From a virus: a DNA stretch of 36,242 nucleotides. The stretch spans positions 1 to 36,242 of the IMG/VR virus record IMGVR_UViG_3300035703_000236; one strand, given 5' to 3'. Position numbers and translations under genes: made by a program. Below the pieces are notes generated by a model. The model did no database searches, was not told the DNA's origin, and saw nothing but the letters and a program-made list of their open reading frames with translations. This document shows, in pieces, positions 1-36,242 of the stretch. Each line of letters opens with the position of its first letter. Position 1 is the stretch's first letter.

Positions 1-127
1 AGCCACGTCTTGGCCTTGCCCCAGAGTTCAGCGCGCAGGTTCATATACTGGCCTTTGACGGCGGGCGACTCGCCGACGTTAATTCCGCGACACGGAACTT
101 TTAACTCGCGCAGGCGGTCAACGACGC
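1..127. repeat. Left copy of 127-bp terminal direct repeat (circular-assembly overlap)
   Basis: Bases 1-127 are identical to 36116-36242. Both copies lie inside one continuous terL reading frame, so joining them restores an intact gene. The length of 127 equals a common maximum k-mer size of short-read assemblers, so this is most likely the overlap of a circular contig and not a biological terminal repeat. Confidence 0.95.
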
Positions 128-1145
128 CGGCGCCAAGTCCGATGCTGTCCACCAGTATCTCGGCCGGCTTGCTCTTGTAGTCCGCCATCTCGTACTCGTG
201 CAGTACCGCACCCGTCAGCGACATCAGGTCTAGGTTGCGCCACGTCTTGACGGGTTCTAGCACCACGTTGCCTTGGCGCTTGCAGAGTGCAGAGGAGTCG
301 GTGCCATAGCGCGCCACGTCTAGCCCCCAGAGGATCGGCGCGCCGGGGTTCTGCACCACGTCACGATCCATCGCCGTCTGGGCTAACTCAAGGCTGATCA
401 GCGTGTCGTCGTCGGCCAGCGGGAACTCGCCGAGCACGCGCACTCGGTAGGCGTTACTGCCCTCGCCATAGCGCGACTTCATTTCGTTTACGTACTCGGC
501 CGAGACGCGGGGCGAGTCTAGGCAGGAGACGTGTAGGTTTTTCCACTCGGACGATAGGCGGTTGAAGGTGTCGTAAAAATACCCCTGCGTCTTGGTGGGG
601 TTGCCGAGCAGCAAGGTGGTGGCGTTGTGTCCTGACATCGAGCCGCCAGCGGATTCGAATACAGCCTCGGAGACACCCGGCGCTTCGTCCACCACCAGCA
701 GCACATACTCGGCGTGGATACCTTGCAGGGCGTCCGGCTGCTCGGCGCGGCTGGTGCGGGCGGAGATGAAGGCTTCTTCTGGACTGGCTTTTAATTCAAT
801 TCGGTCGGACTTGATCTCAAGCAAGTCCCCTATGGCGGGGGGTAGCAGCTTGGCCCAGCGGCGGCACTCGCCGAAGAGGGCGTCGAATAACTGGCTGGCC
901 GTGGGGGCGGTGACGACCACTTTGACGGGTACGCGGGTGAGCATGTACCAGAGCATGGCCCACGAGGCGGCGGTGGACTTGCCGGTGCCGTGGCCAGAGC
1001 GGACTGACACCTTGCGCTCTCCCTTCGCCAGAAGCCCTAGGAGCTGACGTTGCCATGGGTCTGGGGTGACCCCTAGCACCTCCTCCACGAAGGCCACAGG
1101 ATCGCTGTAATAGCGTTTAACGAAGTCGAGGTATGGATTCTGCAT
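1..1145 (-). CDS. terL: Terminase large subunit, N-terminal 381 codons (gene continues at the right end)
   Basis: This is the packaging motor ATPase/nuclease, cut by the window edge. Read from ATG at 1145 and continued across the circle to 35863, it gives a 465-residue protein, a normal TerL length. The Walker A motif (SGHGTGKS, about residues 50-57) and the Walker B motif (VLLVVDE, about 148-154) mark the ATPase. A first nuclease aspartate is seen in LDVARYGTD (about D276) and another acidic motif in DSIGLG (about D333). An in-frame stop lies six bases upstream of the ATG, so the start is fixed, yet there is no Shine-Dalgarno sequence before it, only an A-rich stretch. It is separated from terS by an unusual 250-bp gap. 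Function is assigned from family motifs. Confidence 0.95.
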   Translation of the reverse strand, partial: MQNPYLDFVKRYYSDPVAFVEEVLGVTPDPWQRQLLGLLAKGERKVSVRSGHGTGKSTAASWAMLWYMLTRVPVKVVVTAPTASQLFDALFGECRRWAKLLPPAIGDLLEIKSDRIELKASPEEAFISARTSRAEQPDALQGIHAEYVLLVVDEAPGVSEAVFESAGGSMSGHNATTLLLGNPTKTQGYFYDTFNRLSSEWKNLHVSCLDSPRVSAEYVNEMKSRYGEGSNAYRVRVLGEFPLADDDTLISLELAQTAMDRDVVQNPGAPILWGLDVARYGTDSSALCKRQGNVVLEPVKTWRNLDLMSLTGAVLHEYEMADYKSKPAEILVDSIGLGAGVVDRLRELKVPCRGINVGESPAVKGQYMNLRAELWGKAKTW

Positions 1146-6886: not shown

Positions 6887-6996
6887 TGGACATGTTCACA
6901 CTCACCCCAGCAGAGCTGCCGCACGCTTGGACGCTCGTTAAGATGCTGGCCGTGTTTGCCTTCATGGCAATCGTCGTGGCGGTGCTCGAGCGATGA
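6886..6996 (+). CDS. 36-residue single-pass membrane protein
   Basis: A very short gene begins within the stop of the previous one (TAATG) and ends within the start of the methyltransferase (ATGA). The protein has one hydrophobic segment (LVKMLAVFAFMAIVVAVL) and a short N-terminal tail with TPAELPHAW. Overlaps on both sides and the clear transmembrane helix support a real gene. Function unknown. Confidence 0.55.
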   Translation: MDMFTLTPAELPHAWTLVKMLAVFAFMAIVVAVLER

Positions 6997-8198
6997 AGTA
7001 CTTGTCCGTCTGCTCTGGCATCGAAGCCGCCACCGTCGCGTGGCACCACATGGGATGGCAGCCTGTTGCGTTCAGCGACATTGAGCCTTTCCCGTCTGCT
7101 GTGCTTGCACATCATTACCCTAACGTGCCGAATCTCGGCGACATGACCAAATTTGAGGAGTGGAACCTTGAACCAATTAACCTTCTTGTCGGAGGCACAC
7201 CCTGCCAGTCCTTCTCCGTCGCCGGCCTCCGCAAAGGGCTTGCCGACCCCAGAGGCAACCTCATGCTTACGTTTCTTGCAATCGCTCAACGTCAGCGGCC
7301 TCAATGGATTGTCTGGGAAAACGTCCCCGGTGTCCTGTCATCTAACGGAGGACGGGATTTTGGCACCTTCCTCGGGGCGCTGGGCGAGTTGGGGTATGGG
7401 TTCGCATACCGAGTTCTCGACGCTCAATGGTTCGGAGTGGCCCAAAGACGCCGTCGTGTGTTCGTTGTCGGATACCTTGGAGACTGGCAGCGTCCCGCAG
7501 CGGTTCTTTTTGAGCGCGAAAGCGTGCGCCGGGATACTCCGCCGAGCAGAGAAGCGGGGCAAGACGTTGCCGGAACAATTGCGGCGCGCTTTGGAATCAG
7601 TCGCAACAATCACGAAGAATGTGTAGCGCAGACGCTTTTAGCGCGTCGGGGCGGTTTCGATCTTGAGTCGGAAACTCCTGTAGTTGCGCCGACTTTGCAA
7701 GCAAACGACGGAGCCAAGTGGGGCAGCAATCAATGGATTGATGAAGGCAAGGCTATCGTTCAGCCCGTCGCCTTCCACAACCGTCAAGACCCAGATGTTA
7801 GCGGCCACATCACGCACCCGCTTGGCGCAAACGATAACGGCATGGCGGTGGCGCAGCCAATCAATATCTACGGCGGAAATAAGCGACCAGATCGGCCAGA
7901 AGGTGGCTTCTACGTTCGCACAGATGAAACAACAAGCAAGACGCTAGATGCGGCAAGCGGATTAAATCCAACTTGCTCACAAGGCGGCACGGCGGTAATG
8001 ACTGCTATGCAAGTACGCCGCCTGACGCCAGTTGAGTGCGAACGCCTGCAAGGCTTCCCCGACAACTACACCAACATTCCTTGGCGCAAGAAGCCAGAGT
8101 CACCGGATGGCCCGCGCTACAAAGCTCTGGGCAACTCAATGGCCGTGCCAGTCATGCGCTGGATTGGTGAGCGTATCAACAAGGTGGATGCAGAATGA
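6993..8198 (+). CDS. DNA (cytosine-5) methyltransferase
   Basis: All key motifs are visible in 401 residues. SAM-binding motif I is SVCSGIEAA (5-13). The catalytic loop is GGTPCQSFSVAG with the nucleophile C71. The ENV motif is at 110-112. QRRRRVFVVG is at 151-160. The variable target-recognition region is about 170-330. The C-terminal LTPVECERLQGFPDNYT motif completes the fold. It would methylate the C5 position of a cytosine in a short site. There is no partner restriction enzyme nearby, so it most likely protects phage DNA from host restriction or marks it. The target site cannot be read from sequence; see the note on CTCGAG excess. Confidence 0.93.
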   Translation: MKYLSVCSGIEAATVAWHHMGWQPVAFSDIEPFPSAVLAHHYPNVPNLGDMTKFEEWNLEPINLLVGGTPCQSFSVAGLRKGLADPRGNLMLTFLAIAQRQRPQWIVWENVPGVLSSNGGRDFGTFLGALGELGYGFAYRVLDAQWFGVAQRRRRVFVVGYLGDWQRPAAVLFERESVRRDTPPSREAGQDVAGTIAARFGISRNNHEECVAQTLLARRGGFDLESETPVVAPTLQANDGAKWGSNQWIDEGKAIVQPVAFHNRQDPDVSGHITHPLGANDNGMAVAQPINIYGGNKRPDRPEGGFYVRTDETTSKTLDAASGLNPTCSQGGTAVMTAMQVRRLTPVECERLQGFPDNYTNIPWRKKPESPDGPRYKALGNSMAVPVMRWIGERINKVDAE

Positions 8199-22912: not shown

Positions 22913-23578
22913 TCAAGCCGCCTGCAAATAGGCGGGATGCGTTTTTTCAGTCCAAGTCTTCGCAGTATCTGACTGCGGTGTCCATGTTTCTGCCGTGTCG
23001 CTCTGCACGCTCCACGCCTTCGCCGTGTCGCTCTCTGGCGTCCACGCTCGAGCAGTGTCGCTGCCTGCCGTCCACACTTCTGGTGTGTCTGGCTCAACCT
23101 CCCACTTGCGCCTGCCGTTGCAGGTCAGCGCGCTGGATGCTGCCATCGCAGCAGATGCAAACTGCACCCGATTGGCCGTCGCTGTCAGCGCTGCCGCTGC
23201 TGCGAGATTGGCGCCACTCTCGTACACCGCCAAGGCGGTGGCCGTAAGAGTCGCCACTGCTGGCAATGTCGCGCTGGCCTGCTGTATGCGCTCCGCTGAG
23301 GCGGTTAGCGCGGCAGCAGCAGACAATGCTGCCGCTGCGTTTTGTACCCTAGTCGCGGTCGCTGTGAGCGTTGCCGCTGCGCTTAACGATGCAGCACCCT
23401 GCTGCACCCGTGTTGCACTCGCTGTGACCGTAGCCGCAGCATTTAACGTCGCCGCACCCTGCTGGATGCGTACCCCTGCTACCACCAACGTAGCGGCGGC
23501 AGAGAGTGTGGCTGCCCCCTCTTTGGGGTCTATGCCATAGTTACCGTATCCGTAAAGCCCTGAGCCGTAACCGGCCAC
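22913..23578 (-). CDS. Double tandem-repeat virion-region protein
   Basis: The 221-residue protein is made of two repeat families. After a Gly/Tyr-rich start (MAGYGSGLYGYGNYGID), seven units of exactly 20 residues follow (about 19-158), consensus QGAATLSAAATLTATATRVQ. Then come about five 10-residue units of SDTAKAWTPQ type (about 163-212). The first set alternates small and hydrophobic residues as expected for a beta-solenoid or stacked fibre. It lies directly upstream of the tail fibre gene. I know of no function; a fibre extension or decoration protein is plausible. Confidence 0.65.
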   Translation of the reverse strand: MAGYGSGLYGYGNYGIDPKEGAATLSAAATLVVAGVRIQQGAATLNAAATVTASATRVQQGAASLSAAATLTATATRVQNAAAALSAAAALTASAERIQQASATLPAVATLTATALAVYESGANLAAAAALTATANRVQFASAAMAASSALTCNGRRKWEVEPDTPEVWTAGSDTARAWTPESDTAKAWSVQSDTAETWTPQSDTAKTWTEKTHPAYLQAA

Positions 23579-23964: not shown

Positions 23965-24593
23965 GGGATAGCCCTCGTCGGTTTGACCGCCATAGCAAGC
24001 CGGCCACCACTGAAGGAGGCACGCTCATCCTGCACGATCATGTCGTTAATTGCGTTTTGGTAAATGCTCGACCACACGCCGATGCGCTCGTCATCGCGCA
24101 GGTACGGAGCGGCTTGCAGTAGCGAGCCATAGAGGTACACGTCTGGGTGCCGCTCTAACACCCAGTTGGACACGTTGCTATCTGACAACTTGGCGAGCGT
24201 GGCCACATACGTCAACTCAGCCGCATAGCCCGTGTCAGGCGGCGGCAGCACTTCAATCTGGTTGCCAATCAACGCAAAGTATTGCGGCGTGCCACTGGTG
24301 CGATAGATGTACTTCTTGGCGTCAAGCTCGTCCTCGGTCAAAAAGGTCAACGGGCGCACCGGAGCGGTGGCCGTCAGTACCAGTGACTTGGCCGCCAAGA
24401 AGTCAGACGGAAGCGCAGAGAACGGCGTGTCGATGGTCGCGGTCGATCGCTTGACCATCTTCTGCGTCGGCAGTTTGCGCTCAATCTGCGCCTCGGCTAA
24501 TGAGATGAAGTCCGGAATAACCGATGTCAGGTCATCCCGGTTCAGCCAGTCAGCGATGCTAGATCTCAACGCGCTGTATGACGTTAGTGCCAC
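23961..24593 (-). CDS. Head-tail adaptor (P22 gp4-like)
   Basis: The 210-residue protein opens with LRSSIADWLNRDDLTSVIPD, then FISLAEAQIERKL, the recurrent N-terminal helical motif of phage adaptor proteins that attach below the portal. A beta-rich middle (ALIGNQIEVLPPP) and a C-terminal helical bundle with YGSLLQAAPYLRDDERIGVW follow. Its start lies 35 bases inside the preceding glycosyltransferase gene. It probably connects portal to the gp10-like hub. Confidence 0.7.
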   Translation of the reverse strand: MALTSYSALRSSIADWLNRDDLTSVIPDFISLAEAQIERKLPTQKMVKRSTATIDTPFSALPSDFLAAKSLVLTATAPVRPLTFLTEDELDAKKYIYRTSGTPQYFALIGNQIEVLPPPDTGYAAELTYVATLAKLSDSNVSNWVLERHPDVYLYGSLLQAAPYLRDDERIGVWSSIYQNAINDMIVQDERASFSGGRLAMAVKPTRAIP

Positions 24594-25233
24594 CGTCTAC
24601 CTGCTCCTTCATCGCCCACGCACCCTCGTGCGAATATTCGAAGGTGCCGATATGCTTGACCTGATGCGACAGGTCATGATCCAGCAACACCTCGAACCCG
24701 GCCTCTCTCGCCTTACGGCAGAAAAAGACATCCTCACCAATGTAGTGATTCCCAATCGTTGAATAGGGAATCGCAAACCACGGCGCCTCAATCTTCTCAA
24801 ACACTGCGCGCTTGACCATCATCACGCCCATTCCGACGTAATCGACAGGCTGCAAGCCCTCCGAGTCTGGCGCCGTGTAGACTCGACCAATCTTCCCTTG
24901 CTCGTCCATCATCGCCACCGGCTTCACCGGCATACGGCGTGTGGCGTAATTTGCCGCCACGATGGGCTTATCGCGCAGGATCAAGTGCCCGATAGTTTCC
25001 TTCGGGAACCGCATGTCAGAGTCTAGCCAGAGGAGATAATCCGCCCTCTCCTCGAGCGCTTGACGTGCAAGCTCCATTCGTTGAGAGGCGATCAGAGTTC
25101 CGTGCGATGTGTAGAGCATCACTCGGTCGTCTGTTGTCGCGGTATGAAACGACATCGCACGCGCTAGGTCATAGGCAAACGATGTCATTACCGTGTCCCG
25201 TGCTGGGACTAATATGGCGACCGTGCGACTCAT
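24559..25233 (-). CDS. GT-A fold glycosyltransferase in the structural gene block
   Basis: The 224-residue protein begins with AILVPARDTVMTSFAYDL, then YLLWLDSDMRFPKET, where D71-S-D73 is the DxD motif that binds a metal and nucleotide sugar, and ends with YIGEDVFFCRKAREAG, the usual acceptor-side acidic motif. It should transfer a sugar to a protein or glycan. It is buried between capsid and adaptor genes and overlaps the adaptor by 35 bases, so it is made with virion proteins; glycosylating a virion protein is an inference. Confidence 0.8.
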   Translation of the reverse strand: MSRTVAILVPARDTVMTSFAYDLARAMSFHTATTDDRVMLYTSHGTLIASQRMELARQALEERADYLLWLDSDMRFPKETIGHLILRDKPIVAANYATRRMPVKPVAMMDEQGKIGRVYTAPDSEGLQPVDYVGMGVMMVKRAVFEKIEAPWFAIPYSTIGNHYIGEDVFFCRKAREAGFEVLLDHDLSHQVKHIGTFEYSHEGAWAMKEQVDGGTNVIQRVEI

Positions 25234-28533: not shown

Positions 28534-29994
28534 TTAGCCGCGGCCACGCGAACGCGCATTCTGCACCGCAGCCTGACGCGCAGCGGTTAAATTATTAACT
28601 GCTGACGGCGCAAATTGCGGCATCTCCATTGGCGGCGCAACCGGCGCAGGCGTTGGCATCATCATCTGGCTTTGGAAGACTTGTGGGTTGTAGTAACTCA
28701 ACCCACCAACTTCTGCCGCTGGAGCAGCAGGCGGCGGCAGCGGCGCGGTCGGCACCGGGTCAGGCTGCACGGTAAACGTCTCCACCGTTGGCTCGGTGTA
28801 GAAGCGACCGTCGCTGCTGACTTCAGGCGCTGCCGCCTGCGGGCCAGAGTATCCCGGTACGAAGAGATTAAGGTTGGGCGGAACCTGTGCCGGCCGAGGA
28901 GGCGTAGGGGCAGGCGTAGGCGCACGCGCTCGAGTTGGCGGGGCAACAGGCGCAGGAGGCCGCGCAGGGGCAGCAGGAGCGTTCGGCAAATTGCCTTGCG
29001 TCAACTGATTAAACGCATTCAAGTCAAACGGCGCCTGCGGCATCGTCATTGGCGGGGGCGGAGTTGCTGCCGGAGTAGGCGCAGGAGCAGCAGGGCCACG
29101 CGGCACTTCGCCACTCGGCGTGATCTGCGCTGTCGGCGATGCCGGCTGATTAGAGCCGCTCAAGCCAAGCGCAGCGCGCAGCGCGTCAATGTCCAACTCA
29201 TACCCTTCAAACGGCGAGGCTTGCTGCATCGCCTGCATTCTTCCGGGCTGCTGGCCGAATCCACGACGACCGCCGCCACCAAACATGGATGTCTGCTGGA
29301 ACGGGTTAAACGACGGCGCGCCGTAATACTGGCCAAACATGTATTGACCGAAAAGGTCGTTGACGTTCGGCTGCTGCATCTGCGGCATACCAAAGCCACC
29401 ACCCATGCCGCCGCCAAATTGACTGGCATACCCGCCTTGGCCGTAGCCAAACTGCGACGGCAGTTGCTGGCCAAAGCCCTGCATATAGCCGCCAGTGTAG
29501 TCCGGCATGGCGTTATAACTGCCAAACATGCTGTAGTTGCCCATGCCGCCGCCAAAGCCGCCGCCAAAGCCGCCGCCGAAGCCACCCATGCCGCTAAAGC
29601 CAGCGGTTCCGCCACCTTGCTGCAGACTTCGCATAGCTGCGCTTCCTTGGCCACTGGCTTGTCTTTGGCGCTGCAAATGCAACTGACTTGAATTTTGATT
29701 CTTCAAATCTTGCTGCGCTAGAAAATCCATATCTTCCCGAGTAACCGAGGCAGGGGTTGCCATGCTGCGATTCATGATTTCACGCGCCCGCTGTCTATCA
29801 GCAGATTCGGAGTCGCTCCCGTATGAACTCTGCTGCGCCTGCGCCTGTTGAGGTTGCTCAAATCCGCCGCCGTAGCCGCCCATTCCGCCATACGGATCAA
29901 ACGAGCCGCCGGGAATATACGGCAACTGAGGCTGGCTCATGCCGTACATCGGTGACATGGCCATTTGTGTCTGGCCGGAATATAGGTTGCTCAT
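28534..29994 (-). CDS. Low-complexity Gly/Phe/Tyr/Met and Pro/Ala-rich protein
   Basis: The 486-residue protein is almost wholly low complexity. Residues about 1-50 and 125-250 are Gly/Phe/Tyr/Met/Gln-rich with tandem GGFGGGFGGG units and YGQGGY patches. The remainder from about 285 is Pro/Ala/Thr-rich (PAPAPTPAATPPPP), with a single helix-like segment around ELDIDALRAALGLSG (about 270-284). Such aromatic-glycine sequence is similar to prion-like domains that condense. It lies between portal-side virion genes and scaffold. No homology is recognised; virion-associated or assembly role is inference. Confidence 0.65.
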   Translation of the reverse strand: MSNLYSGQTQMAMSPMYGMSQPQLPYIPGGSFDPYGGMGGYGGGFEQPQQAQAQQSSYGSDSESADRQRAREIMNRSMATPASVTREDMDFLAQQDLKNQNSSQLHLQRQRQASGQGSAAMRSLQQGGGTAGFSGMGGFGGGFGGGFGGGMGNYSMFGSYNAMPDYTGGYMQGFGQQLPSQFGYGQGGYASQFGGGMGGGFGMPQMQQPNVNDLFGQYMFGQYYGAPSFNPFQQTSMFGGGGRRGFGQQPGRMQAMQQASPFEGYELDIDALRAALGLSGSNQPASPTAQITPSGEVPRGPAAPAPTPAATPPPPMTMPQAPFDLNAFNQLTQGNLPNAPAAPARPPAPVAPPTRARAPTPAPTPPRPAQVPPNLNLFVPGYSGPQAAAPEVSSDGRFYTEPTVETFTVQPDPVPTAPLPPPAAPAAEVGGLSYYNPQVFQSQMMMPTPAPVAPPMEMPQFAPSAVNNLTAARQAAVQNARSRGRG

Positions 29995-31387: not shown

Positions 31388-33643
31388 TTACATTACCTGC
31401 GGCGGCATCGGCTGCTCAGGCGCTGGCGGCGCCATCTCCTGCGAAGGCGGGGCTGGCGGCTGCTGCGGCATGAACTGCTGCGGATTTACCGGCGTGATCT
31501 CAGGAAGCACCGGATTTTGCACCGATGGCGTAGCAGTGCGCGGCCGCTCCATCATGGCGCTGATCATGGCCGTATCAATCTGCGTGCCGCTCTTCAACTG
31601 AATTTCATAAGCGCGCAGCATGATGTCCGCTTCCTGCTTATCGCGTGCGCGGTCATCCTCAAGCAGCATCGACTGCCGTTTCAACTCTAGTTCAGCCTGC
31701 TTGTTCTGGATGTCAGCCATAATCTTCTGGCGCTCGACCTCAGCCAGAATCTGCGCCGGATCAGGCGGCGGCGGTGGCGGTGGCGGCGGGGGCGGCTGGT
31801 TGGCCGGGTTCATGAAGAACTCTTCCGAATTCTTGAAGCCAGACAACTCAGCAAGACGCGCCAACGTGTTGCGGTATTGAACCGGGGTGACAATCGGATT
31901 TTGCGGCCCCATTGTCTGCATGATCTGCTCTTGCTTCTGCGCAAGCGATGTCAGCACGGCAATCTTCTGCTCTTCCGTGCCACCGCCAAGCGCCACGTCG
32001 ATTTCAACGTCCATCTCGGCGTCCCACGACCGTGGGTCAATGGGCACCCACTGATTACGAAGGCGCACCACCCGTGGGCGATCTTGATTTTCCACGACCA
32101 GCTTGAGAATGCCTTTGAACAAGGCGCGCATCCCGGTTTCTGCGAATATCCGGGCTATCAGCTCAAGATGTTGCTGTGCAGCGCTGACGGTTGCGGCGAC
32201 TGCCGCACGGGTGGTGCTCTGTAACGCATCGGCTTGCAACCCCATTGCGGCCTTACTCATGCCGGTGCGGGTCTCGCGTACCTCATCGAGGTAGCCGAGC
32301 ATCGGGAAGGCGGCCTGTCCTACAAACGGCACAGAGAACGGCTGAACCATTCCCGGTGCGCGCTGACGGATCACGCCACCAACCTCGGTATTCAATACGT
32401 CGTCCATGTTGACCTGCCCCTCAACCACGCCGACACGCGGGTGGATGGCGAGAGACAACGAGTCAAGCATGTTGCGCATGACGGCCGACTTGATGCGTTG
32501 CAAGTCAGCGGTCATGTCAAAGATTGACAGACCAATCAGGGCATGAGGCTCCGGGTCTGGGCAGAAGAGCGCAAACGGACGATGCGAGCAAGGCTCGTTC
32601 ATCACCGTCTTATACGACGGCCCGATGGTGCAAATTTTGCGCAGCTCTGCGATGCCGTCTTGGTCATAGTCAATGCGCATGTAGGCTTCGACGTACAGCA
32701 CGCGCTTGTCATCCTGCGTGCCACCCGGCCCGTAGCTCTCGGCATACGGGTTGCGGGCAATATACTCATCGTTGGTGTCAAGCTCGTAGACGCCCATCTG
32801 CGCCTCGACCTCATCTTTATCGTAGCCAAGCGCTACCAACTCAGAGACGCGCATCATGCGGCGGTGCGCCACAATCGTGGCATCCTCAATCGAGGTGGCG
32901 CGGCGGTCAATTAAGAACTCTTCGGGCGGCACCGCACAAACCTTAACGCGGCCGCTCTTAAACTCGCGCTTGAGTTCAACATTGTAAATTTGCGGCGCAG
33001 GCGGCGGCAGTCCTGTCATAGGATCAACCACCGGCTGGCCCGTCATCGGGTCAATAGGAGGCTGATACGTCGGATCGTCCATCACCTCGATGGCACTGCC
33101 GACCACATCGGCTTCAGAGAGCAGCACAGTCAGCGCCGACTCGTCCAATCCGGTGTAGTGCTCGGTCTTGACCTCGACCTTTTCTTCCCAATAGTACTTG
33201 GCAATGCCAAGCGCACCGCGCAGAGCGTCTTTGAAGACGCTATGGCAAATCAAAAATCCGTTGTTATCGTTTTGGAAGATCCAGTTGACGTAATCCGTCG
33301 CCTGTTCGGCCACCGGGATGTCTTCTGGGCCACGCGGTACGAATTGCACAACTTTGTTGGAACCAAAAAACACTTTCATCAACGACGGCATGATGCCGTT
33401 GATGGTGTCTCGCACGTCGGTAGAGACTACCTGTGAGCGGCCTTCCTCTTCGTTGCCAAAAGGCTCGCCGCGATAGTATTGGATGGCACGAGCGCGGACA
33501 GGCGACAACTCGGCGTCAATAAACGACACCGCATCTGTCAACTCACCGCCTACTAAAGCCTCCAGCTCGGCGTCGTCCATCGGGTTGATGGCGCCGACTT
33601 CGGCCGCGGCCTGCTCAATTTGTGAACCGTTTTCGTTGTACAT
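31388..33643 (-). CDS. Portal protein (P22 gp1-like)
   Basis: The 751-residue protein fits P22-type portals in length and in features such as RARAIQYYRGEPFGNEEEGR, VSTDVRDTINGIMPSLMKVF, HSVFKDALRGALGIAKYYWE and the TRTGMSKAAMGLQADALQST region, which lies in the stem/crown section. The dodecamer forms the DNA gate. The C-terminal part has a run of 11 prolines and then a long charged helix (QILAEVERQKIMADIQNKQA), followed by a Gln/Pro-rich tail, perhaps an extended barrel. It is separated from the glyco module by a hairpin. Confidence 0.9.
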   Translation of the reverse strand: MYNENGSQIEQAAAEVGAINPMDDAELEALVGGELTDAVSFIDAELSPVRARAIQYYRGEPFGNEEEGRSQVVSTDVRDTINGIMPSLMKVFFGSNKVVQFVPRGPEDIPVAEQATDYVNWIFQNDNNGFLICHSVFKDALRGALGIAKYYWEEKVEVKTEHYTGLDESALTVLLSEADVVGSAIEVMDDPTYQPPIDPMTGQPVVDPMTGLPPPAPQIYNVELKREFKSGRVKVCAVPPEEFLIDRRATSIEDATIVAHRRMMRVSELVALGYDKDEVEAQMGVYELDTNDEYIARNPYAESYGPGGTQDDKRVLYVEAYMRIDYDQDGIAELRKICTIGPSYKTVMNEPCSHRPFALFCPDPEPHALIGLSIFDMTADLQRIKSAVMRNMLDSLSLAIHPRVGVVEGQVNMDDVLNTEVGGVIRQRAPGMVQPFSVPFVGQAAFPMLGYLDEVRETRTGMSKAAMGLQADALQSTTRAAVAATVSAAQQHLELIARIFAETGMRALFKGILKLVVENQDRPRVVRLRNQWVPIDPRSWDAEMDVEIDVALGGGTEEQKIAVLTSLAQKQEQIMQTMGPQNPIVTPVQYRNTLARLAELSGFKNSEEFFMNPANQPPPPPPPPPPPDPAQILAEVERQKIMADIQNKQAELELKRQSMLLEDDRARDKQEADIMLRAYEIQLKSGTQIDTAMISAMMERPRTATPSVQNPVLPEITPVNPQQFMPQQPPAPPSQEMAPPAPEQPMPPQVM

Positions 33644-33648
33644 AAAAC

Positions 33649-33662
33649 CGGCACCCGTGCCG
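33649..33662 (-). terminator. Hairpin with T-tract before the portal gene
   Basis: CGGCAC and GTGCCG form a short stem (the apical pair must open to give a four-base loop). On the minus strand it is followed by TTTT and then the portal ATG. It could be a weak terminator at the end of the sugar module or a translation-control hairpin. Stem length is marginal. Confidence 0.3.
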
Positions 33663-33682: not shown

Positions 33683-34699
33683 TCACGCGAGAAGTGACGC
33701 AACCTGATTTTTAGTCAGACTGACCAGCCAAGATTCTCGATCCTTGACCCCAAAGGAGGCTATGAGTCGCCCTTGGTGCTCAACCAACCCAGCGCAAAAC
33801 TCAATTTGCTTGCCCTTAAAGAAAAACTCGCGCCCAGCGTGCACGGGTTCTAGGTTTTCACCATAGCGCACCATGCGATGGACGTAATACACCCGGTTTC
33901 GCTCCTTCCGCCGCTGGTGGACGATGGAAACTAGCGCGCCGTCAAACTCCACAACCTGCGAACCGCCAGACCAGCGCTCAAGTTCGGTGTATCCGTTGAG
34001 ATACAGGCGGCGCTTGGTAGGCCATAGTTCGTATGCCTCGCTCGGATGGTGAGCGTAAATAAAGGATAAGCGGTTATCCTTTACTTGCGGCGCCCAGTTT
34101 TTCTCCATCTCACGACCGTGAGGGCTGGGCAAAAACTCTAGGTAGGTGACACGCCCTTCCTCGAGCTTGCACAGCGCCATCGTCGTGCGCACTCGCGGCC
34201 CGTGGTGCAGGGCAGAGCAGGTAAAGTGCCACGCATCGTGCCACCAGAACAGTCGAGCATCCTCAAGGCCATCTCTGGCCGGTACTCGGGTGTGGCGTGT
34301 CGTCAGGTCGTCCACCCACTGCGGCACGCCGGGGGCGAGGTTTGACCCAATCGGCACGAAATAGTTTCGTGTGTTAGGCGCAGGATCGCCACGGAACCAG
34401 ATTCCGTCCTCTTCGCCTAACTCGTAGTTGACCGTGCGCACCAAACAAGCCAAGTTGCCGTTAGCATCCTTGGCAATAGACGGGTTGCAGGGCAAATACG
34501 CCTCGCCCGGTATCTCAATGCGCACAAACCGCTCAGGCGGCAGGTGCTCCGATAGCGTTAGGCTGCCGGGGGCAAATCCGGTGGCGTCGGCTTCTTGGGC
34601 GGCTGCGGTGGTTTCTTGGGTTCCGCCTTCGGCGGCGCTTTCTTGTCTAGGCGCTTTTGGAATTGCAGCACGTCGCTTGGCTTTAACATTCACGCTCAC
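33683..34699 (-). CDS. GH130/GH43-like five-bladed propeller, sugar-active
   Basis: The 338-residue protein has a Pro/Ala/Thr-rich N-terminal tail (about 1-50) and then a propeller: YLPCNPSIAKDANGNLACLV, GLEDARLFWWHDAWHFT (144-160) and MEKNWAPQVKDNRLSFIYAH (198-217). The GLEDAR and EKNWxP motifs match the mannoside-phosphorylase/GH130 group. It may cut or bind glycans. The start is a GTG (34699 or 34693). It lies between a GT25 glycosyltransferase and the portal, one base after the former. Confidence 0.65.
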   Translation of the reverse strand: MSVNVKAKRRAAIPKAPRQESAAEGGTQETTAAAQEADATGFAPGSLTLSEHLPPERFVRIEIPGEAYLPCNPSIAKDANGNLACLVRTVNYELGEEDGIWFRGDPAPNTRNYFVPIGSNLAPGVPQWVDDLTTRHTRVPARDGLEDARLFWWHDAWHFTCSALHHGPRVRTTMALCKLEEGRVTYLEFLPSPHGREMEKNWAPQVKDNRLSFIYAHHPSEAYELWPTKRRLYLNGYTELERWSGGSQVVEFDGALVSIVHQRRKERNRVYYVHRMVRYGENLEPVHAGREFFFKGKQIEFCAGLVEHQGRLIASFGVKDRESWLVSLTKNQVASLLA

Positions 34700-34700
34700 C

Positions 34701-35309
34701 TCACATGTGGATGGTTGATGGCATCGGCACCGCCAAATCTTGCGTGGCCTGTATGACTAAAGGCGGCACGGCGGTCAGCACGCGCAGGTGCGGCAGCGCA
34801 TACCACTCAAGCAGGATATCTACCGGCGTGTTGGCAGGCTTGGTGTACTGCTGCAACGTCGGTATGGCACGGCGGCGATGCCAAATGGCGGCCGTGCACA
34901 GTGGGTACTTAATCTCCCACAGATTGGTGGACTCTTTCTTGCCCGGCTTGTCGGTGGTGCAGCACGAGTTGAGGTACACCAAGTCGCACCACTCTGGAAT
35001 TTCGGCGCGGATCTGCGCGAAGCGCTCGTGGAAGTTATCAGGCAGGATAAAGTCATCCTCAAAAATGATGAACTCTTCGTGCCCCTCACGCCACGCAATC
35101 TGCCACGCGATGTGCCATGAGAGAACCAAGCAGGTCGCACCGCGGGTGACGTAGTAATCCGTGTGCATCGGAATCTCGGACTTGACCTGCATGGTCTTGC
35201 CGAAGATGCCATAAATAAAATCTAGCTCAATGCCAGCCTTCGCGGCCTGCGCTCGAGCGTGTTCGGTGCGCTCGGGAGTTTCAGATAGGGTGATGCAGTA
35301 GTATTTCAT
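34701..35309 (-). CDS. GT25-family glycosyltransferase
   Basis: The 202-residue protein starts YYCITLSETPERTEHARAQA, has GATCLVLSWHIAWQIAWREG, then FIIFEDDFILPDNF with E84-D85-D86, as in LPS-type GT25 enzymes, and ends with a basic-aromatic region. It probably transfers galactose or a similar sugar to a surface glycan or protein. It overlaps the methyltransferase gene upstream by four bases, indicating a shared task. Confidence 0.8.
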   Translation of the reverse strand: MKYYCITLSETPERTEHARAQAAKAGIELDFIYGIFGKTMQVKSEIPMHTDYYVTRGATCLVLSWHIAWQIAWREGHEEFIIFEDDFILPDNFHERFAQIRAEIPEWCDLVYLNSCCTTDKPGKKESTNLWEIKYPLCTAAIWHRRRAIPTLQQYTKPANTPVDILLEWYALPHLRVLTAVPPLVIQATQDLAVPMPSTIHM

Positions 35310-35866
35310 AGGTCACGAATGAAGAATAACAACGTGGGACGCCCCCAAGATGACCCTTGGCGCCGATCTGTCTCGCGGAACATGAGCGAGGTGATCCAGT
35401 CGCACTTAAAGCCGTTCTCGCCAAAGCGCTCAATCCAATAGTCGGTCGTCTGCTCGTTGACATGGTGGTGACCACCCTGCCCCGGAACCGCGTGACACAT
35501 CAGCACATACTTGCACTTGTGCATCGTCGCAAACCAGTTTTGTTCGCATTTGCGGTCAACGTGCTCCACAAACTCGGTGCAGATGCACAGGTCATACTCG
35601 CGCTCTGGCACATACGGCGCACGCTCGTAGTCGTGCGAGACGATAATATCCTTGACCACGTTTTCGGCGAGCGCGACGGGGTGCCCCTCCACCCCACGCG
35701 CATCAAAGCCTAGGTCATGCCACCATTTGACGTTATGGCCATAACCTGCGCCCACATCAATCACGGATTTGATGCCGTAGTGCAGCGCAAGATACCCCCA
35801 GATGTCCGGCATCCATGTTGCGCGGTCACCCTCCGGTATCGCTCCCCCCAAATGATCTATGCTCAT
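35306..35866 (-). CDS. SAM-dependent methyltransferase (class I)
   Basis: ATG at 35866 overlaps the terL stop by four bases (ATGA) and gives 186 residues; an earlier in-frame start would overlap terL more. SAM-binding motif I is VIDVGAGYGHN (35-45), with an acidic residue at the end of strand two (GVE, near 60) and CTEFVEHV (96-103) as motif IV. The target is not visible: a sugar, lipid or small molecule is likelier than DNA because no DNA-binding region is present. It joins the two sugar-active genes downstream. Confidence 0.78.
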   Translation of the reverse strand: MSIDHLGGAIPEGDRATWMPDIWGYLALHYGIKSVIDVGAGYGHNVKWWHDLGFDARGVEGHPVALAENVVKDIIVSHDYERAPYVPEREYDLCICTEFVEHVDRKCEQNWFATMHKCKYVLMCHAVPGQGGHHHVNEQTTDYWIERFGENGFKCDWITSLMFRETDRRQGSSWGRPTLLFFIRDL

Positions 35867-36242
35867 ACCACACCTCGAATCTGTCTCTTGACCGCCTTTG
35901 TCCACGTTGGCGCATAGGCGCCGCCAGCGGTCGCGGCCTCGCTCGCAAACGTCAGCACAAACGCATCGGCCACGTCAGGCGATGCCAGCCCTCGGCGCTT
36001 CATGTCGTCTTTGCTCTCGAGCTTCAGTTTGCCGTTGCTCATGAACGAGTACCGTGGCGAGGATAATTCATTGACCAGCCTTTCGTCACGCGGCAGTTTG
36101 CAGTCTCGCGCCTCTAGCCACGTCTTGGCCTTGCCCCAGAGTTCAGCGCGCAGGTTCATATACTGGCCTTTGACGGCGGGCGACTCGCCGACGTTAATTC
36201 CGCGACACGGAACTTTTAACTCGCGCAGGCGGTCAACGACGC
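35863..36242 (-). CDS. terL: Terminase large subunit, C-terminal part (continues from base 1 of the circle)
   Basis: This is the remainder of the gene that starts at 1145; bases 36116-36242 repeat 1-127. The nuclease domain's last acidic motif is SPDVADAFVLTFA (D429 and D432 of the joined protein), typical of the RNase H-like nuclease of large terminases. Its stop overlaps the methyltransferase ATG. Read alone it would look like a 98-residue ORF beginning at an internal Met (36159). Confidence 0.93.
   Translation of the reverse strand, partial: VVDRLRELKVPCRGINVGESPAVKGQYMNLRAELWGKAKTWLEARDCKLPRDERLVNELSSPRYSFMSNGKLKLESKDDMKRRGLASPDVADAFVLTFASEAATAGGAYAPTWTKAVKRQIRGVV
36116..36242. repeat. 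Right copy of 127-bp terminal direct repeat
   Basis: Exact copy of 1-127 at the right end. Removing it gives a 36,115-bp circle with an unbroken terL gene. Confidence 0.95.

Follow-up and report, generated by a model that had tools for sequence, protein, structure and literature searches.

A glycosyltransferase, an exchangeable methyltransferase, and a predicted propeller with an overprinted small gene between the terminase and portal genes of an uncultured podovirus-like phage

RESULTS

Genes between terL and the portal gene

The window, i.e., the whole stretch of DNA analyzed here, comprises 36,242 nt. The same 127 bases are found at both ends (positions 1 to 127 and 36116 to 36242), leaving 36,115 unique bases, and, based on this 127-bp end repeat, the record looks like a complete podovirus-like genome. 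The window is from an uncultured phage, the predicted portal, capsid, and adaptor of which are of the SU10 type. The closest relatives of the portal in the annotated phage collection are at most 52% identical, while genome contigs contain portal relatives in an uncultured bacterium (54%) and in a Reyranella MAG (48%) that are too remote to name a host. The close relatives are, without exception, metagenomic contigs, among which related ones represent non-independent events. A search of the open-access literature returned no paper on the cassette or the overprinted gene described below.

As described in the initial annotation, three genes on the minus strand lie between the genes for the large terminase subunit (TerL) and the portal protein. 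The gene order on this strand is TerL, methyltransferase (MT or, in relatives, MTb), GT25 glycosyltransferase, propeller, and portal. The TerL ORF, when joined over the record ends, encodes 465 aa. The features are as follows:

1 to 1145, minus strand (read from 1145 to 1 across the record ends): N-terminal part of TerL; PHROG match to the terminase large subunit
35863 to 36242, minus strand: C-terminal part of TerL, belonging to the ORF joined over the 127-bp end repeat, which ends at 35863
35306 to 35866, minus strand: MT, putative class I methyltransferase of 186 aa; PF08241 above the cut-off
34701 to 35309, minus strand: GT25, putative glycosyltransferase of 202 aa; PF01755 above the cut-off, EDD invariant
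33683 to 34693, minus strand: propeller of predicted GH130/GT108 fold; conserved start GTG at 34693 (start at 34699 in the initial annotation)
34558 to 34689, minus strand: predicted overprinted small gene, 43 aa, Lys/Pro-rich, in the +1 frame relative to the propeller
33648 to 33662, minus strand: palindrome CGGCACGGGTGCCGG, just ahead of the portal ATG and followed by TTTT
31388 to 33643, minus strand: portal protein of the SU10 type; PF23899, 708 bits

The TerL/MT and MT/GT25 joints are 4-nt overlaps (ATGA), in agreement with the proposed coupling of the genes by short overlaps. The one-base spacing that had also been proposed applies to the first possible propeller start (34699), which is separated from GT25 by 1 nt, but not to the start kept among relatives, i.e., the GTG at 34693. 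The propeller gene terminates 39 nt ahead of the portal gene. Given the overlap with terL, the suggested coexpression with virion genes is very likely; promoter-like sites are not more numerous than in shuffled sequence. An exact 22-mer from the region of the palindrome is present in 44 viral contigs. We considered that it might form a structured RNA; however, relatives of the L053 type retain the sequence but read CGGCACGGGTGGCG, by which the pairing is lost, and we regard CGGCACGGGTGCCGG as a conserved sequence motif only.

The cassette has a fixed order, and the propeller is its constant part

Relatives were collected in several sets: 46 via the propeller, the best 80 of 94 via GT25, and the best 80 of 519 via the portal; another set comprised the best 80 of 228. 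The cassette order was held, as far as the contigs extend, at 79 of the best 80 of 94 GT25 loci, which is more than expected by chance. At these 80 loci, the gene ahead of GT25 was MT in 40 cases and MTb in 39 (neither could be assigned in one), and GT25 was followed by the propeller in 77 cases and by the contig edge in three. Similarly, among 69 portal-derived loci (from the best 80 of 519), 62 contain the portal start, and the propeller is present in 60 of these 62; the other two extend <500 bp upstream. Among 42 distinct sets, the mean pairwise amino acid identity was 0.910 for TerL, 0.909 for GT25, and 0.680 for the propeller.

A DNA-level scan for the small ORF identified 57 contigs, of which 49 have GT25 together with the propeller, four lack GT25 and MT, and four are cut by the contig edge. 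In the four contigs without GT25 and MT (L327, L334, L339, and L342), the propeller directly follows TerL. These contigs support that MT and GT25 are dispensable and are gained or lost together, while the propeller and the small gene form the constant part of the cassette. All four have a second propeller type (GGISFGNSPRPDT in place of DGIWFRGDPAPNT), which is 50 to 55% identical. The idea that GT25 coevolves with one propeller type was rejected because three contigs (L345, L346, and L348) combine the second type with GT25, arguing that the presence of GT25 does not determine the propeller type.

GT25 is conserved and the methyltransferase is exchanged

GT25 matches PF01755 with 39.7 bits (cut-off, 24), and its relative in L040 matches with 42.8 bits. 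Residues E84, D85, and D86 are invariant across 14 rows; we take this EDD to be the acidic motif of the GT25 family. Compared to family 25 glycosyltransferases, with which it shares the profile match and the invariant EDD, the phage protein is a short form of 202 aa. Its structure was predicted with low confidence (mean pLDDT, 61.6). Only two matches to GT25 were found in the annotated phage collection, both 21% identical and in unannotated 735-kb records. Elsewhere in the window, a second glycosyltransferase-like gene is located behind the capsid gene (24559 to 25233); it matches PF13506 just above the cut-off and has relatives in MW202496, MW202711, and many cyanophages.

MT has the profile of a class I SAM methyltransferase (PF08241, 26.3 bits; cut-off, 21.2). 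In about half of the relatives, its slot is occupied by MTb, which matches Methyltransf_24 and TylF, a macrocin O-methyltransferase family (PF13578, 64.4 bits with a cut-off of 26.3; PF05711, 26.3 bits with a cut-off of 23); BLASTP detected no similarity between MT and MTb at E ≤ 1. The tally is 61 MT and 33 MTb among 94 loci, which include contigs fetched more than once, and 23 versus 20 in 43 distinct sets. For these 43 sets, at least six changes of the MT/MTb label are required whichever of the three trees (TerL, GT25, or propeller) is used. In the case of TerL, five changes are forced by branches with good support, and the average for shuffled labels is 14.6. The sequences thus point to a slot that is exchangeable between two dissimilar methyltransferases. 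In two contigs, an additional DNA methylase of the N4/N6 type is inserted beside the MT of the cassette (L023, 2073 to 3485; L028, 1420 to 2535).

The propeller has a predicted GH130/GT108 fold but lies outside GH130

The propeller has no match in Pfam, PHROG, or NCBIfam and none among PDB sequences. An AlphaFold model based on a 21-row alignment has a mean pLDDT of 80.9, with residues 1 to 39 below 50. When this model was compared to the PDB, GH130 enzymes ranked first (Z, 23.2 over 268 residues), and the top 21 rows (Z, 20.3 to 23.2) belonged without exception to GH130 or to propellers of this kind. GH43 enzymes reached Z values of up to 19.0, and the GT108 enzyme of Leishmania (6q4z) reached 18.3 over 256 residues, i.e., below GH130 and on par with GH43. 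We conclude that the propeller is modeled as having the five-bladed fold of GH130 and GT108. By sequence, however, it falls outside GH130. PF04041 did not match at E ≤ 1 (0 of 1 in this record, with positive controls in 4 of 14 genomes), and an hhalign comparison to eight bacterial PF04041 proteins gave a nonsignificant probability of 3.5. By contrast, a profile comparison to three distant phage proteins gave a probability of 99.9 (E, 1e-33), and the propeller groups with proteins of phages DSL-LC01, DSL-LC02, and S-SCSM2R.

The propeller contains a GLEDAR motif, of which E146 and D147 are invariant in 21 rows, and the eight PF04041 proteins have an invariant GxEDxR; this is a comparison of motifs only. 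In the available text of PMC4599007, Asp142 of BT3780 is given as the invariant aspartate of GH130, and GH130 members in which glutamates replace basic residues are hydrolases; as far as covered in the available text of PMC8950772, GT108 enzymes have the same fold and are dual transferase-phosphorylases. Based on motif order, the phage propeller is not assignable to either the GT108-like or the GH130 hydrolase type.

No relatives of the propeller were found in genome contigs, and its distant homologues occur in viruses in the company of genes for glycan synthesis. The DSL-LC02 homologue adjoins FkbM methyltransferases amid tail-fiber and collagen-like genes, and the DSL-LC01 homologue adjoins a methyltransferase gene. 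In the viral contig L358 (1082 to 4367), two collagen-like ORFs, the collagen match of which is below the Pfam cut-off, are followed by a 667-aa GT2-TPR-propeller fusion, with the homologue as its C-terminal part (28% identity over 285 columns). Giant-virus proteins containing propeller homologues are named fucosyltransferase, LicD, and pyruvyltransferase. These fusions and linkages argue for a synthetic role of the propeller rather than trimming.

A collagen-like acceptor was searched for in the window, and no run of six G-X-Y repeats was present in any frame. Two low-complexity proteins are encoded amid its virion and tail genes, i.e., a weakly conserved 486-aa protein rich in Gly, Pro, and Thr (28534 to 29994), which is a possible glycan acceptor, and a 221-aa protein consisting mostly of Ala/Thr-rich repeats of ~20 residues (22913 to 23578).

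A small gene is predicted to overlap the start of the propeller gene

A small ORF of 39 to 50 residues across relatives starts with an ATG 4 nt downstream of the propeller start. All 42 relatives with a complete GT25 end contain it, as does the window, and it is present at 78 of the best 80 of 94 GT25 loci, the remaining two being cut off. Its ATG is retained in all, and its length changes are multiples of three. In the first 18 codons of 32 distinct sequences, changes at positions 1, 2, and 3 of the small frame numbered 22, 18, and 67; when read in the propeller frame, the changes in the small ORF fall on the first position. The third-position pattern of the propeller resumes beyond the small ORF (65, 43, and 139 at alignment codons 81 to 100), and GT25, which served as a control, gave counts of 185, 75, and 950. 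Similarly, changes in the small frame numbered 25, 19, and 58 in 42 sets, i.e., 43 sets excluding L091, which reads MLKKSDIAQFQ by eye. In these 42 sets, the same 54 nt had a mean identity of 0.867 when translated in the small frame and 0.688 in the propeller frame. Because the third-position pattern flips at the end of the small ORF, we conclude that selection acts on the small frame and that the first ~40 residues of the propeller are a passive tail, which is disordered in the model. Altogether, the small ORF is best described as an overlapping protein-coding gene with a predicted product and with codon constraint in its own frame confined to the ORF.

The propeller start, an RTG located 4 nt upstream of the small ATG, is retained by all 29 distinct leaders, whereas bases −9 to −5 vary. 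The propeller frame is open across the overlap; with reshuffled codons, it stays open on average in a fraction of only 0.30. L342 is an exception in that GAGGAGG precedes the small ATG and the propeller has no start 4 nt upstream, only a TTG at −16. On the simplest reading, one ribosome-binding site would serve both starts. Programmed frameshifting out of the small ORF into the propeller frame was another possibility, but inspection by eye revealed no conserved slippery site.

Alternatively, the small ORF might not represent a gene, and its conservation might stem from an RNA element or from the N terminus of the propeller. In favor of this reading, family searches with the predicted small protein gave nothing significant, and the phage collection contains no match to it. 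However, the three-base periodicity in the small frame stops at its stop codon, its length varies in threes with a universal ATG, and the propeller residues that overlap it are modeled with a pLDDT of <50, making this reading very unlikely. Nested genes are known in phages from Rz/Rz1, in which a small gene lies inside a larger one in another frame. The pair described here is alike in this respect but differs in that the frames overlap right from the start codons, which are offset by 4 nt, and in that there is almost no constraint on the larger frame in the overlap.

The gap between terL and the portal gene varies among relatives

The initial annotation regarded TerL and portal as normally neighboring and suggested comparing the gene order to that in relatives lacking the module. 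In this comparison, neighboring genes were the case in only two of six annotated relatives, in which the gap holds between zero and six genes (HTVC106P, 0; Venkman, 0; phiM5, 1; MW202879, 2; MJing1, 5; MW202711, 6). Likewise, the gap was 95 to 3648 bp in the 48 metagenomic sister loci (of 80) that have both the TerL end and the portal. The SU10-type podoviruses and phages of the HTVC106P/Venkman type share the portal, capsid, and adaptor families with the window, but in the six annotated records examined, the cassette is absent between TerL and portal. Using tblastn, which misses diverged genes, MT, MTb, GT25, and the propeller were not detected in the 48 sister gaps. The 20 of these gaps that were printed contain other ORFs, many of which are Lys-rich mini-genes; one such mini-gene is DUF6496 in the related MW202879. 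Pfam-supported GT2 genes are present in two of the 48 gaps, and a methyltransferase below the Pfam cut-off is present in 10.

These differences in content and length support that the TerL-portal gap is a cargo site, and the notion of an insertion separating genes that elsewhere are invariably adjacent was rejected. Neither this general cargo site nor the overprinted gene nor the interchangeable methyltransferase was part of the initial annotation. A 231-aa family in the gap of 26 of the 48 sister loci (L143 to L172) resembles a GT-A enzyme on visual inspection; however, a glycosyltransferase assignment was unsupported by Pfam, PHROGs, PDB sequences (the best matches were unrelated), the phage collection, and hhalign comparisons to glycosyltransferase-like proteins, and the family was not counted as evidence. 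In a distant relative, the gap contains an 877-aa ORF (L201, 1664 to 4297).

DISCUSSION

Here, we describe a cassette in which a phage glycosyltransferase is linked to virion genes, as in phage virion glycosylation systems. We suggest that the cassette serves to build and cap the phage's own glycan, most likely on a virion protein, and consider the chance of this to be evenly balanced. In this model, MT and GT25 would be translated together with TerL in the late phase, and GT25 would place a sugar on a virion protein. This glycan would be extended by the propeller, acting as an inverting transferase or a reverse phosphorylase similar to GT108 or mannoside synthase, and MT or MTb would methylate the sugar, such that swapping of the two alters the cap. 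One ribosome-binding site would serve the starts of the propeller and the small gene, and the small Lys/Pro-rich protein would be a separate late product, perhaps the counterpart of the Lys-rich mini-genes ahead of the portal in sister phages. The initial annotation proposed both the building and the trimming of glycans on virion proteins. An action on virion glycans is indirectly supported by (i) the conservation of GT25 at the level of TerL; (ii) the fixed place of the cassette among late genes; and (iii) the distant propeller homologues that adjoin tail-fiber, collagen-like, and methyltransferase genes.

Trimming by the propeller, as a hydrolase or phosphorylase of the GH130 type, was not supported. 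It would fit with the top-ranking fold matches to GH130 phosphorylases and hydrolases, with which the propeller shares the five blades and GxEDxR; however, the propeller has no sequence membership in GH130, its fold is also that of synthetic enzymes, including GT108 and mannoside synthase, and related propellers are fused to GT2, as in L358, or linked to other glycan-synthesis domains. On balance, we find trimming improbable. The choice between a glycan on the virion and a glycan on the host is closer, and based on the place of the genes and their company, we put the former at roughly an even chance. In the alternative, which is a serious rival, GT25, the propeller, and MT would act late in infection to alter lipopolysaccharide or a different glycan of the envelope and, thereby, block superinfection or the readsorption of progeny to debris. 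The Pfam family of GT25 is named for lipopolysaccharide biosynthesis, its best-known role, the small pool of MTs resembles sugar methyltransferases, and MT and GT25 are dispensable. On the other hand, the genes are located among and overlap with late virion genes rather than lying in an early or lysogeny region, GT25 is conserved across phages to the same extent as TerL, while tools acting on host glycans would be expected to vary with the host, and reading of the ORFs revealed no membrane or export partner gene in the cassette. On balance, we consider remodeling of the host surface to be the less probable of the two, and the data speak neither for nor against the readsorption idea of the initial annotation. 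Phage glycosyltransferases often act on DNA, according to the available part of PMC12619734, and the window contains a C5-cytosine methylase (6993 to 8198), raising the idea that GT25 decorates the phage DNA as in hypermodified phage genomes. Yet no hydroxymethylase or other hypermodification gene was found among the window proteins searched, which did not comprise every small ORF, and the partners of GT25 are sugar-type enzymes and the propeller; we consider DNA decoration extremely unlikely.

Returning to a glycan on the virion, a more elaborate version is that the cassette is a serotype-like system in which GT25 and a synthetic propeller build the glycan and its cap is switched by methyltransferase exchange; in addition, the propeller gene would have grown across a preexisting 43-aa late gene that is still required, with one ribosome-binding site setting the ratio of the two products. 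We offer this combination as speculation that is more probably wrong than right in its entirety. In mycobacteriophages, glycans were measured on the capsid and tail tube (Freeman et al. 2023, as described in the available parts of PMC11256854 and PMC12619734). As far as can be judged from these sources, the two cases are alike in that phage-encoded glycosyltransferases are thought to act on virion proteins, and they differ in that the present case consists of genes alone and in the set that GT25 forms with a propeller and an exchangeable methyltransferase.

The pair of genes overprinted start to start is of a kind that is missed by gene callers choosing one frame. Moreover, the propeller extends the GH130/GT108 fold, as modeled, into a clade of phages and giant viruses that is tied to glycan synthesis. 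To our knowledge, there are few phages for which glycosylation of the virion has been measured. If our proposal is true, the cassette would add a lineage from many metagenomes, in which a glycosyltransferase is conserved at the level of the terminase while the presumed methyl cap is swapped, and it would provide a testable case of virion-surface variation outside animal viruses.
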